Source: Candidatus Bathyarchaeota archaeon (lineage in GTDB: Archaea; Thermoproteota; Bathyarchaeia; Bathyarchaeales; Bathycorpusculaceae). From it: a DNA stretch of 34,925 nucleotides. The stretch is taken from assembly GCA_030672475.1 (NCBI GenBank), contig DAOVGI010000031.1, positions 1 to 34,925 of the forward strand. The letters run 5' to 3'. The position numbers and the translations under genes are program-made. A model generated the notes under the pieces. The model worked only from the letters and a program-made list of their open reading frames with translations. It did not search any database and was not told the origin of the DNA. Shown piece after piece: positions 11,170-23,597 of the stretch; the stretch's first letter is position 1, and each line of letters begins with the position of its first letter.

Positions 11170-11315
11170 TTCTCGGCTTGTCGAGTTACTAGAATAGAGA
11201 GAGCGCAAATTATTCTATAGTCACAAAGAATTAAACCTTATACCTGTAACGCAGTATGGTAAGTCTCCGTAGATATTATTTATCCCTTGAACTATCAGAA
11301 ATAGGAGAGAGAATA

Positions 11316-13379
11316 ATGCCAATAAGAACGTTTTTTGGATTGATGATGACAATGCTGTTAATGGTCATCTTGACGTTGGCATTTAACATTGAGCTGGTTC
11401 AAGCAGATCTCAGGAGAGTTGGAGAGAGAGATTCCTTCCTGAGTGACAATGTGCGGTTGACAGGCGATGGAGCCAGACGGCTTAAAGAACGGATCAAAAT
11501 GGATACTGATGGGAGGGTGAGGATTGTTGAACATGAAATCACAACTTCCGATTTGGAAAAACTCAAGCTGAAAACTGGAGTTTATAAAGAAGGCATGAAC
11601 TATAATAAGAAAATAAAGGGTTATGGGACAGGATTGCGTCCTCCAACAGAGGAGGGCTGGTCTAAAATTCTGGATGAAGCGTATGTTGTTGATCAGATTC
11701 TGTGTGATAAGAGCATCGAGTCCTTAGATCAAGTTGACCATTCAATTGGAGCGTGGTTTCCGCCTATAGGAAACCAAGATGGTGAAGGTTCGTGTGTGGC
11801 TTGGGCGGTGGGGTATTATATGAAGACTTTTCAGGAAGCGAAAGAACATGATTGGGACTTGTCAGGAGCGGTTTGGGAGGGTGGATACCTGGGACATCCA
11901 ACTCAGGCCTATCAGGATCGGATATTCAGTCCTGATTTCATTTATCATCAGATCAATGGAGGGGAGGATGGCGGTTCGTATTTTTCCGATGCTATGAATT
12001 TGGTGTGTTCTATTGGTGTTTGCTCTTGGGAGAAGATGCCTTATGATCCTAATGATCATACAAGTTGGCCTTCTGAGGCCGCGTGGAGAGAAGCTCCTTT
12101 ATACCGTGGCAATAGCACCGGATATGAATACGTGATATTGGATACTAATGAAGATATTGCTAATTTGAAAAATTGGATAGCGTCAGCGCACCTTGCAGTA
12201 ATAAATATGGACGCCAACCAATATGATGACTTGACAAGTGATGATGTTTGGACATTGGACAATTATGCAGGAGGCGGTGGACATGCAAACACAATTGTTG
12301 GATATGACGACAACTTGGAATACATAGAGGAAAGTGAGACTCGCCACGGGGCTTTTAAGATAGCAAACTCGTGGGGTATAGGAGGATGGGAAAATGTGGA
12401 TGATGGTTGCTATTGGATATCCTATGAAGCTATGAAACAGCGAGAGGGATATTGCATGTTTTTCCGGGACAGGGTGAACTACGAACCGAAACTAGTGGCA
12501 TCCTTCCAGATGGATCATTTGAAGAGAGGAGAATGTGAAATCACAGTAGGTATCGGAAGCAGGAGTACCCCAATTCAGACAAAAAGGTTTGATAATTGGA
12601 TGATGAATGGAGGAGACCAACCCTTTTGTCCCAACAGTGTAGTGTTTGATATCACGGAGTTTGAAGATGCTGTGCCAACAGTCATCAACCAATCATTCTT
12701 CATGAAAGTTTTCGATGGAGCTAGTTCCACAACAGGTGCGATCAATTCGTTCTTAATTGAACACTATTATGACTACACTTCTGGAAACTTACGTGTTGAA
12801 TCGACATCCGACGATGTACCAGTAGACACTTCTAATTATGAATACGTGTTTGCAGAATTGGTGTTGAGAAGCCTGCACGATATAGGAATAACCAGCATAG
12901 CCATGTCAAAAACTGTGGTTGGGCAAGGTTTCAACCTGCAAATCAACGTGTCAATAATGAACTATGGCAATTCCACTGAAAACTTTAACGTAACAATCTA
13001 CGTCGACACAACATCAATCACCTCATTTGTAAATATCACCCTAACAAGCAGAAACTCAACAACTCTCGCATTCACATGGAACACTGCAGGCTTTGCTGAA
13101 GGCAACTACTCTTTGACAGCTTATGCTCACCCAGTTTTAGGTGAAACGGACATTTCTAACAATCGTTTCACAGATTGTTGGATAATCGTTACTATTCCAG
13201 GTGATGTGGATGGTGACTTTGATGTTGACATCTACGACATAGTCCAGTTTTGCGGTTCGTACGGTTATGAGGAAGGCAACGCTAAATACATCAGCAACTG
13301 TGACATAGACGCAGATGGGGATGTGGACATCTACGACATAATCATAGCGTGTGATTATTACGGAAGACCATGTTCATAA
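11316..13379 (+). CDS. Secreted papain-like (C1) cysteine peptidase with CARDB-like domain and C-terminal dockerin type I
   Basis: Signal peptide MPIRTFFGLMMTMLLMVILTLAFNIELVQA; GNQDGEGSCVAWAVGYYM (Cys), GGGHANTIVGYDD (His), KIANSWGIGGW (Asn); GDVDGDFDVDIYDIVQFCGSYG...CDIDADGDVDIYDIIIACDYYG duplicated calcium-binding dockerin motifs. The upstream start at 11256 is possible. Confidence 0.9.
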   Translation: MPIRTFFGLMMTMLLMVILTLAFNIELVQADLRRVGERDSFLSDNVRLTGDGARRLKERIKMDTDGRVRIVEHEITTSDLEKLKLKTGVYKEGMNYNKKIKGYGTGLRPPTEEGWSKILDEAYVVDQILCDKSIESLDQVDHSIGAWFPPIGNQDGEGSCVAWAVGYYMKTFQEAKEHDWDLSGAVWEGGYLGHPTQAYQDRIFSPDFIYHQINGGEDGGSYFSDAMNLVCSIGVCSWEKMPYDPNDHTSWPSEAAWREAPLYRGNSTGYEYVILDTNEDIANLKNWIASAHLAVINMDANQYDDLTSDDVWTLDNYAGGGGHANTIVGYDDNLEYIEESETRHGAFKIANSWGIGGWENVDDGCYWISYEAMKQREGYCMFFRDRVNYEPKLVASFQMDHLKRGECEITVGIGSRSTPIQTKRFDNWMMNGGDQPFCPNSVVFDITEFEDAVPTVINQSFFMKVFDGASSTTGAINSFLIEHYYDYTSGNLRVESTSDDVPVDTSNYEYVFAELVLRSLHDIGITSIAMSKTVVGQGFNLQINVSIMNYGNSTENFNVTIYVDTTSITSFVNITLTSRNSTTLAFTWNTAGFAEGNYSLTAYAHPVLGETDISNNRFTDCWIIVTIPGDVDGDFDVDIYDIVQFCGSYGYEEGNAKYISNCDIDADGDVDIYDIIIACDYYGRPCS

Positions 13380-16480: not shown

Positions 16481-17701
16481 ATGAACAGTAAGATATCTGT
16501 TCCTTCAAGAAGCAAAACAGCATTAGATTTTGTTGACGGAGATTTAGTTGTAGGCAGGCGTGCAATCATCAATGGAACAGGAACACCGCCCGCAGTGAAA
16601 GTTTGTGGCACAGTTTACTGTGAAGGAGACAACGTTTTTGAGTGCGCCCTCTCAGCAGAAAACCTAGAAGCAGAAGATAACGTAACAATTCATGGAAGCC
16701 TAGAAATAGAAAATGATGTTAAAGTGGAAGATGGTCACCTAGAAGTTTATGGGAAAATGACCGCAAAACGTGTAGATGTAGACTCAGCTCTCTATATAAC
16801 CAAGGATTTGACGGTTGAGGAAGTTGATGTTGGTGGAAGCCTAAAGGTTGACGGAAATGTAAAGGCTGAAGACATAGATGTAGGCGGAAGCTTTAAAGCA
16901 AAAGGAGAAGTAGAAGCTGAGAAAATAGACGTGGGAGGAAGTGTTTCAATAGCATCTAAAGTCAACATCACAAAACTGGATGTAGGAGGCACGGCAGAAA
17001 TTGGAGGCGGAGAAATTCGCAAAGTAGACGTAGGTGGAAGCTTCGAGTCAAAGGACTCGCTAGAATTTAAACAAATAAATGTGGGCGGAGTCGTTCGACT
17101 GACCAACAAAAGCAAAGGTGGTGACATAGATGTCGGAGGCTCATTTAAAATCGAAGGTGACCTAGAGTTCAAAAGCATTGACGTAGGAGGCAAAGTAGAA
17201 ATAACTGGATATGGTGAAGGCTGTGAAATAGAAGTAGGAGGCAAAGTGAAAACGGGCAAGTCGCTGAAGCTTTCAGGAGATCTCGAAGTAGGAGGCAAAG
17301 TAGAAGTTGACGAAGAGGTTTCAGCAGAAAACATCGAGGTAGGCGGAGCATTACGCTCGAGAAAAGCTACCGCAGAAGACCGCGTAGAGGTTGGCGGTTC
17401 AATAATTACTATGGAAGGCGTAACGGCACATTCTGTTGAAATAGGAAGAAGAGGCAAAGTATGTGGACCTATAAGGGCAGATCAAGTTATTATTGGTAGG
17501 GATGCGCATGCAGAAGACATTTATGGAAAGAGGGTTATGCTGAGAAGCGGAGCACACGTAGAAAGCGTTTACGGTGAAAACATCACCATTGAATCTCACT
17601 GTCATATAAGCGGAGAAGTGCAGTATACTGGCAAATTAAGAATGAATGAGCATGTTTCATTGGCTAAGCCACCGCAAAAAGTAGACAGGCTTCCCTTCTA
17701 A
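16481..17701 (+). CDS. Bactofilin-like / polymer-forming beta-helix repeat protein
   Basis: Tandem about 16-18 aa repeats xxxDIDVGGSFKxxGxVEAEK, C-terminal capping part VIIGRDAHAEDIYGKRVMLRSGAHVESVYGENITIESHCHISGEVQYTGKL typical of polymer-forming cytoskeletal proteins. Confidence 0.8.
   Translation: MNSKISVPSRSKTALDFVDGDLVVGRRAIINGTGTPPAVKVCGTVYCEGDNVFECALSAENLEAEDNVTIHGSLEIENDVKVEDGHLEVYGKMTAKRVDVDSALYITKDLTVEEVDVGGSLKVDGNVKAEDIDVGGSFKAKGEVEAEKIDVGGSVSIASKVNITKLDVGGTAEIGGGEIRKVDVGGSFESKDSLEFKQINVGGVVRLTNKSKGGDIDVGGSFKIEGDLEFKSIDVGGKVEITGYGEGCEIEVGGKVKTGKSLKLSGDLEVGGKVEVDEEVSAENIEVGGALRSRKATAEDRVEVGGSIITMEGVTAHSVEIGRRGKVCGPIRADQVIIGRDAHAEDIYGKRVMLRSGAHVESVYGENITIESHCHISGEVQYTGKLRMNEHVSLAKPPQKVDRLPF
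16815..17460 (+). repeat. Intragenic degenerate tandem repeat encoding [I/V][D/E]VGG-centred 16-18 aa units
   Basis: About 12 units, each centred on DVGGS, DVGGT, NVGGV, DVGGK, EVGGK or EVGGA. Confidence 0.85.
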
Positions 17702-19334: not shown

Positions 19335-20891
19335 ATGAGCAAAACCGAAAAGCTCCAAAAAGCTGTTGAATTGACGACCGATGCAGGGTACCAACTTAGC
19401 AAAGAAGCTTTTGAATTTCTAAGTTTGGTATGCGCAACGGATAACCCATCAGAACTCATGTGCAAGGCAATACGGAAGATAGAGACTCTAAAGAAAAAGC
19501 CATTGTTCATCGGCAGAAATCTCCTCGAAGAACTCGTCGAGAGGACAAAGCCAACAGAAGAAACTGCCGTCCGTTCAGTAGAAGAATCACTTCAAACATT
19601 GCCAGAGTCGCTGATGACTGAAGGAAAAACATTTTTCCATCCCTATGCAAAAGACATCGAATCGGATCTTGACGTACTTGTAGATCCAAGCACCAAACTG
19701 GACTCAAGCGGAACAATAAAGGATTACGTGGAATATTTTCGTGATCGATTCAAGAGGATGGAAAGGCTGTTGAAACAAAGGATAGATGCTAGAAGTGCTA
19801 CATCAATCATAGACGTTTTAAAAGCTCCAGCAAAGACGAAACTCAAAATAATCGCCATGATAACAAACAGGAGAGAACTCAGAAGAAGGATAATATTGAC
19901 TATTGAAGATTTGCATGCAAACGCCACGGTGCTTGTGACACAAAATGCTCCAGAGAAACTTCGCAAGAAAGCATCTTCACTCTTGCTTGACCAAGTCGTC
20001 TGCCTACACGTCATAAAGACAAGAAGTAATCTCCTAATTGCTGAAGACATTATTCTCCCTGATATCCCTCAGAAGCCTCACCATAAAGCTCCAGTTCCAG
20101 TCTATGCGGTGCTGACCTCGGACATGCATGTTGGCAGCACAGAGTTCCAGAGAGAGACTTTCAACCGCTTCTTATTGTGGTTGAACGGTAAATATGGAAA
20201 TGATAAGATGAGGGAGGTTGCAGGCCACGTGAAATATGTTCTAATAGCAGGTGACATTGTCGACGGAATAGGTATTTATCCTAATCAGATTGAAGAATTG
20301 GCAATCACAGATGTTTATGAACAATACAAGTTGGCTGCAAATTTTATTGAACAAATTCCGGACTATATAGAAGTGGCAATAATACCTGGTAACCATGACG
20401 CTCCGAGAAAGGCGTTACCACAGCCAGCCATCTCACAAAAATTCCTAGAGATACTGCAAGAGTCAAGAAAAGTGCATTCCCTTGGAAACCCATGTCTCTT
20501 AAGCCTCCATAGTGTGGAAGTATTACTATATCATGGCCGCAGCTTGGATGATATTGTTTCAACTGTTCCAGAAATGAGTCATAAACACCCGGAGAAAGCC
20601 ATGACTTTACTGTTGAAGAGTCGCCATCTTGCGCCAGTATATGGTGGAAAAACACCTCTTTCGCCGGAAAGCATTGACCATTTGGTAATCGAACGTGTGC
20701 CAGACATTTTCCACTCTGGACATATCCATAGGCTCGAATATGGCAATTATCGTGGGGTCTTAGTTGTCAATTCCGGTTGTTGGCAAGGGCGAACAGATTA
20801 CATGCGTAGACATGGGTTTGTTCCCACACCTGGAAAGGTTCCAGTAATAAATCTTCAAACATATGAGACTGCAACCATCTCGTTTGACTAG
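19335..20891 (+). CDS. polB: DNA polymerase D small subunit DP1 (PolD exonuclease subunit)
   Basis: C-terminal phosphoesterase: SDMHVGSTEF, AGDIVDGIGIYPNQ, IPGNHDAPRKALPQPAI, SGHIHRLEYGNYRGVLVVNSGCWQGRTDYMRRHGFVPTPGKVPV; OB-like middle domain. Confidence 0.95.
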   Translation: MSKTEKLQKAVELTTDAGYQLSKEAFEFLSLVCATDNPSELMCKAIRKIETLKKKPLFIGRNLLEELVERTKPTEETAVRSVEESLQTLPESLMTEGKTFFHPYAKDIESDLDVLVDPSTKLDSSGTIKDYVEYFRDRFKRMERLLKQRIDARSATSIIDVLKAPAKTKLKIIAMITNRRELRRRIILTIEDLHANATVLVTQNAPEKLRKKASSLLLDQVVCLHVIKTRSNLLIAEDIILPDIPQKPHHKAPVPVYAVLTSDMHVGSTEFQRETFNRFLLWLNGKYGNDKMREVAGHVKYVLIAGDIVDGIGIYPNQIEELAITDVYEQYKLAANFIEQIPDYIEVAIIPGNHDAPRKALPQPAISQKFLEILQESRKVHSLGNPCLLSLHSVEVLLYHGRSLDDIVSTVPEMSHKHPEKAMTLLLKSRHLAPVYGGKTPLSPESIDHLVIERVPDIFHSGHIHRLEYGNYRGVLVVNSGCWQGRTDYMRRHGFVPTPGKVPVINLQTYETATISFD

Positions 20892-21114: not shown

Positions 21115-22371
21115 CTATTTTCGATGGCCACAATGGGCATGTTGCGAAATACATTTCAACTGACATTTTACCATACGGCCTAGTCTATCGTCTCCAGCAA
21201 AAACTTCTCTAATAAGTGTACGTCCTATCTCCAAACGGATTTTCTTCGTTCGCCCATATCTCCCCATACTTATAACCTGTGCATTTAACAGGCCTATCGC
21301 ATCAAGCTCATTCACTAGAGTGCTTACACGTCGCTGCGTCAAAGGTGAAACACCCGATTTTTCACAAAGCTCACTGTAAACGTCAAAGATTTCACCCGTG
21401 ATAGCACGTCGAACATTTGCTCCACTTAAATGAAACAAGCTGAGAATCACAAGCTTCGAGTGTAAAGTAAGATTTGTTAAAGCTTCAACAATACGGTTGT
21501 GCTCAATGCGCTTTTCCGCTTCCCGAACATGCCGTTCGACAATAACTCTCGCATTCTTTCGCTCACCAACTTCACCGGCAACGCGCAGCAAATCCAAGGC
21601 TCGCCTTGCATCACCGTGTTCTGCAGCGGCCAAAGCACCGCAAAGGCTCAAGGCACCATTAGACAATACACCATCTCGAAAGGCTAGCTTTGCACGATCA
21701 AACAGAATATTCCTTAATTCGCCTGCGTCATATGGTCTGAAAACTATTTCCTCTTCACCAAGTGAGCTTAAAACGCGTGGGTCAAGAAACTCCTTCAACC
21801 GTAGATCGTTGGATATTCCTACAAGGGAGACCTTGCTACTAGACAATATCTCATTTATCCGCGTTAGTTCGTAGAGCACACTGTCACCGTGACTCTTTAT
21901 TAGAGCATCAACCTCATCTAGGACAATGATAAACACTACTTTTAAGGAGTCTAGGCCTTTTTTAAACCTGTCAAAAACCTCGCCGATAGACAAACCAGTA
22001 AAGGGAACAGACATTCCCAGACTGTGACATAACCTTGAGAATACACGATATTCAGTACCTGTCAGACGGCAATTGACATAACAGACTTTGACTGGCGCAC
22101 CGAACCCTTTTGCCTTGATTTCCAAATGGTTTAGGACATATTTTGTCACTGCTGTTTTGCCGGTTCCTGTCTTTCCATAAATGAAAACGTTTGAACACCT
22201 AGCGCCTTTCAATATAGGAGCTACTGTTTCCCCAAGGGACTTAATCTGTTCTTCTCGATGTGGTAATTTGTCGGGGATATAATCATGCCGAAGAACTTCT
22301 CGATCATTAAATATCTGGGTGTTAGTAACAAACTTTTCGAATACCTCATCAAGTATGTTATAGTCGTTCAT
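21115..22371 (-). CDS. cdc6: Orc1/Cdc6 replication initiator
   Basis: PHREEQIKSLGETVAPILKG, GKTGTGKTAV (Walker A), VVFIIVLDEVDAL (Walker B), GISNDLRLKEFLDPRVLSSL (sensor 1), C-terminal winged helix; tandem TAG TAG stop. Confidence 0.96.
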   Translation of the reverse strand: MNDYNILDEVFEKFVTNTQIFNDREVLRHDYIPDKLPHREEQIKSLGETVAPILKGARCSNVFIYGKTGTGKTAVTKYVLNHLEIKAKGFGAPVKVCYVNCRLTGTEYRVFSRLCHSLGMSVPFTGLSIGEVFDRFKKGLDSLKVVFIIVLDEVDALIKSHGDSVLYELTRINEILSSSKVSLVGISNDLRLKEFLDPRVLSSLGEEEIVFRPYDAGELRNILFDRAKLAFRDGVLSNGALSLCGALAAAEHGDARRALDLLRVAGEVGERKNARVIVERHVREAEKRIEHNRIVEALTNLTLHSKLVILSLFHLSGANVRRAITGEIFDVYSELCEKSGVSPLTQRRVSTLVNELDAIGLLNAQVISMGRYGRTKKIRLEIGRTLIREVFAGDDRLGRMVKCQLKCISQHAHCGHRK

Positions 22372-22510
22372 TTTATATCCTCCTCGTTACGCAGAGGTAA
22401 TGCCTTAGCTTCCTCTGGAAAAAATAAGGTCTGTCATACATAAAACTAAATTATGAACACAAAATTTCTAAAACCAAGAAAATGGTTATAGGAGAAATAG
22501 TAAAAGAAAG

Positions 22511-22538
22511 AGACACCCTCATATTTCCACTGGAAATC
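22511..22538 (-). promoter_or_regulatory. ORB-like origin recognition box
   Basis: RC: GATTTCCAGTGGAAATATGAGGGTGTCT (dyad TTTCCAGTGGAAA followed by G-string). Confidence 0.75.
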
Positions 22539-22692
22539 TCTAATAAACCATATGGAATATGTTGATTTCTTTTATTAAAAGAAATATACTCTAAAACTCC
22601 ATTGAACTATATCGTTATAACAATTATAGTTAAGCATTTTTGATAGACTAACTAATTTTCTTTTCAGAATATAGAAATAGTCGTTGATTTTC

Positions 22693-22720
22693 TTTTCCAA
22701 TGGAAACGAAGGGGTGTCGC
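22693..22720 (+). promoter_or_regulatory. ORB-like origin recognition box, inverted relative to 22511-22538
   Basis: TTTTCCAATGGAAACGAAGGGGTGTCGC. Confidence 0.8.
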
Positions 22721-23171
22721 CTTTGTTTTAAATGTCCTACCTTGATGGTTAGCGCTTCTTCTTAATTATACTATCTTCTTGTATGTTTCTATGGGTACGC
22801 GAGAACTTCCTAAACAGGGCTCGTATTCACAACCTTGCGTTCTATCTAACAAGTTTGTGAATACCTTGTGAAATTTATTCACTGCTATTTCTTTCTATTT
22901 CTCTTTTTCGTCAATATTGACTTTTTCTTGATTGTTTCTTGTGAAAAGACCACCCCTACCCTTCTGCTGGAGATAACTGATTGCGTTGTGCCCCACTTGT
23001 TTTTCTAGTCTAGGGGAGCTGTGAACGCTGTGATAACAAAAGCAGTGCAATTCATGCTTATTCACCTTTTATGAGCCTATAAACAGATTATTATTTAACT
23101 TATATTCACCACAACAGCTATAACATGTGAACTGTAAAGTTGTGAACCACTAATCAAGGTGTACACCATTC

Positions 23172-23597
23172 ATGCCAGCGAGAAAGATGCGTATCGAACT
23201 GTTCGACAGTGAAGGTAATCGATACACTATATCATTTGAAGGTCAAGTAACGAGGCAGAAAGCACTTCGTCTTCTTGATTTAGTAGAATTGCTAGGTGGA
23301 GTTTCGAACGATGAAGCCGGCCCTAGAGCCAATGTCTCACCTAACGAGTTTTCCAAATATGACAAAACTCGGATTGTCATTCAGAGGCGCTTCTCTCTAG
23401 TCTGGTTCTCCTCAAAGGAAGTCCAGTCTGTCTACGAACAGGAATTGAAGGCGCCGATAACTCTCAGCACAATAGCAACTTATCTCTCTCGAATGGCAGA
23501 TAGGGGAATACTCCAAAGAATGCGAGCGTCTAGACATCTAAAATATAGAATGGTGCCCAGTTTTCCTGCGGTATCCATTAAGCAGCAAATACCTTGA
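23172..23597 (+). CDS. Hypothetical protein with C-terminal winged-helix-like domain, divergent from cdc6 across oriC
   Basis: FSLVWFSSKEVQSVYEQELKAPITLSTIATYLSRMADRGILQRMRASRHLKYRMV resembles a wHTH; N-term IELFDSEGNRYTISFEGQVTRQKALRLLDLVELLGG. Confidence 0.7.
   Translation: MPARKMRIELFDSEGNRYTISFEGQVTRQKALRLLDLVELLGGVSNDEAGPRANVSPNEFSKYDKTRIVIQRRFSLVWFSSKEVQSVYEQELKAPITLSTIATYLSRMADRGILQRMRASRHLKYRMVPSFPAVSIKQQIP

Follow-up and report, generated by a model that had tools for sequence, protein, structure and literature searches.

In the Bathyarchaeia genome from which the analysed window (34,925 bp in all) derives, the intergenic region between orc1/cdc6 and a divergent winged-helix gene very probably constitutes the chromosomal replication origin (oriC), of the Orc1/origin recognition box (ORB) type, an assessment that leaves aside the role of the winged-helix protein. 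Four attributes of an Orc1/Cdc6-dependent oriC are present, namely an adjacent orc1/cdc6 gene, at least two ORBs with an inverted pair among them, an AT-rich centre, and a concentration of the ORBs at one place. This type of origin is known; what appears to be new is its combination with a box array and a syntenic winged-helix gene. No paper on Bathyarchaeia origins was found in a literature search outside subscription journals, and mapping is reported to have been carried out in Nitrosopumilus by Pelve in 2013. For an abundant, little-cultivated lineage such as the Bathyarchaeia, a conserved origin provides a fixed point for genome orientation, for read-depth estimates of growth rate, and for vector design.

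The first-pass annotation, made from the sequence alone, had proposed an origin here from an inverted pair of ORB-like strings and two weaker copies, and a string check in the window recovered all four quoted strings at their positions. ORBs were then scored with a 30-bp matrix built from the orc1 upstream regions of 29 relatives, with the window left out of the build; the matrix was seeded with an ORB-like regular expression and is, thus, not blind, and neither the window sites nor the background were used in building it. The four best sites in the 34,925 bp all fall within 22394-22975 (36.0, 32.4, 27.4, and 25.2 bits), and the fifth, located elsewhere, reaches 12.1 bits. The two top sites are the annotated pair (minus 22511-22538 and plus 22693-22720), here delimited as ORB-B (22509-22538, minus strand, 32.4 bits), the proximal member at a conserved distance of about 165 bp from orc1, with its dyad toward the AT-rich centre and its G-string outward, and ORB-C (22692-22721, plus strand, 36.0 bits), the distal member. 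Regarding the weaker copies, the reverse complement of 22949-22974 proved genuine and corresponds to the third strong box, ORB-D (22946-22975, minus strand, 27.4 bits). The plus-strand string at 22410-22435, taken for a fourth ORB, is not a conserved box and shares only the dyad; according to the matrix scan, the conserved element is ORB-A (TTTTTCCAGAGGAAGCTAAGGCATTACCTC, 22394-22423, minus strand, 25.2 bits), a variant box in the upstream or leader region of orc1, about 23 bp from the start of the gene (22371).

In ORB-A, a 3' half of the form GGYRTTACC, which recurs in relatives, replaces the G-string. Both the position and this half are retained by roughly half of the 74 distinct origins compared, those with the strand pattern ++-+. 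Since ORB-A lies in the orc1 upstream region, it suggests autoregulation and is a candidate autoregulatory site for orc1. The alignment also reveals a conserved block on the minus strand at 22416-22452 (conservation peaks at 22416-22433 and 22431-22452), which is probably the promoter region upstream of orc1. The order and spacing of the ORBs are kept across the family and the order: read toward orc1 with the nearest box first, the strand order is ++-+ in 39 of the 74 distinct origins and +-+ in 29, together 68, and almost every member of the family and the order has ORB-D some 500-620 bp away from orc1.

ORB matches are concentrated at this locus and not scattered, which had been offered as a check on the origin. 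Sites of at least 18 bits occur once in 1.6 Mb of sequence sampled as 20-kb stretches from four relatives. Moreover, the common ORB motif from the literature (Table 1 of PMC4164010) has its best window matches at 22696 (one mismatch) and 22515 (three mismatches), this motif is found at up to three mismatches at a single site in the 1.6 Mb of relatives, and exact matches to the ORB pattern in the own genome (857 kb) number two, both at this locus. Chance occurrence of the four ORBs has negligible odds and is excluded.

The adjoining orc1/cdc6 gene (21115-22371, minus strand) encodes a protein of 418 aa with an AAA+ domain, a lid, and a C-terminal winged helix, and the earlier description of it as full-length is borne out by Pfam matches to Cdc6_C (1e-26), Cdc6_lid (7e-23), and AAA_22 (5e-12). 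It is the single match in its own incomplete genome and is present in 57 of 61 relatives. As the assembly is 86% complete and comprises 857 kb in 65 contigs, further origins are possible. Most relatives encode another Orc paralogue as well (some 30% identity), at which no ORB of at least 13 bits was detected in the 20 loci scanned. Beside orc1 lies the gene for the small subunit of PolD, DP1 (19335-20891, plus strand; Pfam DNA_pol_E_B, 5e-20). Elsewhere in the window, a long bactofilin-like repeat protein is encoded at 16481-17701 (Pfam Bactofilin, 3e-11), and a reading of the sequence at 11256-13379 reveals a secreted protein of the papain-like peptidase type with a C-terminal dockerin-like repeat, DVDGDFDVDIYDIV.

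The divergent gene, the array of boxes in front of it, and an inverted repeat in the AT-rich stretch are additions to what had been annotated. The gene (23172-23597, plus strand) encodes a winged-helix protein of 141 aa, is single-copy, and remains syntenic with orc1 both within the class and outside it. Every member of the family and the order in which the arrangement is readable carries it divergently across the gap, as do most class members, and it occurs in 132 of 200 phylum genomes, with one copy in each. When coordinates were compared in this 200-genome sample, the gene adjoined orc1 divergently in families f25, f28, f29, f36, and f45 and in tandem in f27, stood about 6-60 kb from orc1 in several families (f30, f44), and was unlinked in others; the family was undetected in the remaining genomes of the sample, including families f31, f24, f37, f35, and f38. 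The AlphaFold model (pLDDT 74, pTM 0.50) starts with a beta-beta-alpha segment at the N-terminus, followed by a linker of low confidence and a winged helix; for this model, Foldseek returned generic ArsR/BlaI-like winged helices, and sequence- and fold-based searches of the PDB yielded nothing beyond generic winged-helix matches. Membership of the BlaI/MecI (Penicillinase_R) repressors was considered and fails, with no full-length match to that family: the Pfam match of the window protein is borderline (22.8, cut-off 22.6) and confined to residues 81-127, in the winged helix, and 27 of 43 relatives match at an E-value of 0.01 or better. NCBIfam gave no match for the window protein. The winged-helix family is an ancient one, phylum-wide and origin-linked, and neither Pfam nor NCBIfam has a family for it.

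Between ORB-C and the divergent gene lies an array of TTCACA boxes, all on the minus strand in the window: a pair at 11 bp spacing (22856-22861 and 22867-22872) within a conserved block at 22852-22880; a box (22940-22945) that, together with a conserved A-rich tail, forms an aligned and conserved element beside ORB-D (22916-22945); a box recognized by conservation and spacing (23020-23025); and a pair at 15 bp spacing just upstream of the winged-helix gene (23126-23131 and 23141-23146). In this half of the region, 71 origins together contain 321 TTCACA (plus strand in the orc frame), compared with 8 in shuffles, which makes it the most enriched hexamer there (37-fold, above the ORB words). Shared descent raises these counts; the sequence that flanks the boxes, however, shows poor conservation. 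Spacings between successive boxes cluster at 80, 106, 11, 15, and 73 bp. The pair TTCACA-N5-TTCACA is absent from the 1.6 Mb of sampled relatives, and a three-part TTCACA pattern had no match in the own genome because the window is without the third half.

The boxes and the gene tend to occur together. Among class members, a TTCACA box in the plus orientation of the orc frame is present in 11 of the 12 with the gene and in none of those without the gene within reach (900 bp scanned; descent ignored), which is suggestive of a connection between gene and boxes. Judging from position, that is, guilt by association in place, the TTCACA boxes are probably binding sites of the winged-helix protein. 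Other orders of the class retain the inverted ORB pair in many members, mostly with a third box, and no box of this matrix was found in 4 of the 19 loci with readable orc1 upstream sequence; the +-+ layout also extends beyond the class, to families f28, f29, and f36. In the ammonia oxidisers (f25; archaeal amoA in 3 of 3 genomes tested, as PF12942, whereas PF02461 had no matches anywhere), a diverged ORB, GCCTGGAGTGGAAATAAAGGGGT, is arranged in tandem (L242-L247, L252), and TTAACA repeats, 43 in seven origins, take the place of TTCACA between the winged-helix gene and orc1.

We tentatively propose, at somewhat short of even chances, that, apart from the Sulfolobus-like groups, Thermoproteota inherited an origin with two proteins, in which Orc1 and its ORBs would be joined by a dedicated, single-copy winged-helix regulator of initiation that binds a co-evolving array, TTCACA in Bathyarchaeia and TTAACA in ammonia oxidisers. 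It is also plausible, if not quite probable, that the boxes and the protein form a local transcription circuit of autorepression and have no role at the origin. Such a circuit would fit the TTCACA pair 26-46 bp upstream of the start codon of the winged-helix gene, the lack of plus-oriented TTCACA boxes from the 900 bp scanned in class members without the gene nearby, and the repressor-like character of the protein (Penicillinase_R at the cut-off, ArsR-like folds). However, the array extends about 310 bp from the gene and brackets ORB-D at fixed spacings, and the adjacency of the gene to orc1 is kept across classes, which plain autorepression would not need.

The stretch between ORB-B and ORB-C (22539-22692) is a candidate duplex unwinding element. 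Its description as AT-rich holds: it has 22.7% G+C against 41.8% in the window, whose 154-bp stretch of lowest G+C starts at 22541. Besides the ORBs, an alignment of 27 upstream regions reveals in it a conserved block, AGAGTATATTTC, after which come a short inverted repeat and TCA. The exact block occurs once in the own genome, at this locus, and once in 1.6 Mb of relatives. The inverted-repeat element (AGAGTATATTTCTTTTAATAAAAGAAATCA, 22563-22592, minus strand) exhibits compensatory changes, since its arms covary and TA, CG, AT, and GC pairs are all seen inside the stem. The three inner base pairs are kept in 14 of 29 distinct sequences against 5.2 in shuffles, and none of 20,000 shuffles reaches 14, a p-value that is inexact because the sequences are related. 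The loop varies in length from 2 to 7. In a Bathycorpusculum-like group (L186, L187, L192, L196-L200), the stem is degenerate and AT-only, and AGAGTA is retained. Instead of a hairpin or the site of another protein, the repeat could be a reduced ORB (a dyad that lacks the G-string) to which Orc1 binds, a reading that we regard as possible and rather doubtful: the outer arms, TTTC/GAAA, are similar to the ORB dyad, and the repeat is preceded by an AGAG-like prefix, as is ORB-B, but its inner positions change with complementarity retained, unlike the fixed core of an ORB, and its loop is variable where that core is fixed.

Skew around the locus was evaluated with a combined GC/TA score in four single-contig relatives, each sampled as 20 stretches of 20 kb. 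With a direction of the score picked after viewing G048 and G167, the origin ranks among the highest 5.5% of positions for G048, where the best position is 15 kb off, and among the highest 9.5% for G167; the skew of G137 is weak (r 0.31, top 4.5%), and the sampled stretches of G172 gave no signal at the origin. This check, also foreseen in the first-pass annotation, thus returned two supportive relatives, one weak, and one negative, and ranges from inconclusive to mildly supportive. It is very improbable that the ORBs only regulate transcription of orc1 and the divergent gene, with replication beginning elsewhere or via recombination, for although ORB-A and the TTCACA pair occupy promoter-like positions and Thermococcus kodakarensis can replicate without Cdc6 and its origin (PMC5663688), repression has no need of an inverted pair whose dyads face the stretch of lowest G+C, the layout that Sulfolobus oriC1 requires in the form of its inverted ORB2-AT-rich-ORB3 unit (PMC12141716), the pair is kept at a fixed, conserved spacing, and the skew shifts near the site in two relatives.

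Under the preferred reading as an origin, Orc1 from the neighbouring gene would bind ORB-B and ORB-C, whose dyads point inward and whose G-strings point outward, and the bound Orc1 would load MCM into the AT-rich stretch, from which bidirectional replication would follow. Such loading at inward dyads has been proposed and is genetically supported for Sulfolobus oriC1 (PMC12141716). ORB-D may bring additional Orc1 initiator close to the pair, and through ORB-A, Orc1 probably represses its own gene, limiting orc1 transcription. From its probable sites, the TTCACA boxes, the winged-helix protein would control its own promoter and could modulate initiation or orc1 expression. What the analysis establishes is the sequence, the position, and the conservation of these elements; the binding of Orc1, the firing of the origin, and the action of the winged-helix protein are inferred.

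Whether other archaea have accessory origin-binding proteins of their own is a question raised in the paper on UBP (PMC12141716). If the winged-helix protein does act on the origin, it would answer that question for Bathyarchaeia, and a two-protein origin, if true, would make it an archaeal origin regulator not previously described.

The closest known counterpart in layout is Sulfolobus oriC1, with ORB1-3, an AT-rich duplex unwinding element carrying ucm, and orc1-1 (PMC12141716). In both, two inverted ORBs enclose an AT-rich stretch upstream of orc1, a further ORB lies outside this pair, and a non-ORB element within the stretch is conserved. Here, in contrast, the pair is about 153 bp apart, the boxes number four, the one in front of orc1 being a variant, the element in the centre has the form of an inverted repeat, and a divergent winged-helix gene and a TTCACA array are added. 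By its place within the AT-rich stretch, the conserved element can be set beside ucm, the UBP site, but ucm is midway in that stretch, whereas the element here is an inverted repeat nearer to ORB-B. Compared with the common archaeal motif of DoriC/Ori-Finder 2, TCCA[CG]T[TG]GAAA[TC][GA]AAGGGGT, from which ORB-C departs at one position and ORB-B at three, the Bathyarchaeia matrix has a looser dyad centre and an extra G-N-C after GGGGT. The oriC-cdc6-DP1 arrangement is known from Euryarchaeota, and the locus resembles that of Pyrococcus and other euryarchaea in having orc1/cdc6 adjoin DP1 and a predicted origin (PMC2643942), whereas in the window DP1 and orc1 converge and the other flank is occupied by the winged-helix gene. 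As for the protein, WhiP, a winged-helix initiator, also stands next to an origin (Sulfolobus oriC3), and UBP at ucm, a small DNA-binding protein that acts at origin motifs, is comparable in the role proposed here; unlike both, the winged-helix protein described here shares its origin with Orc1 and ORBs.
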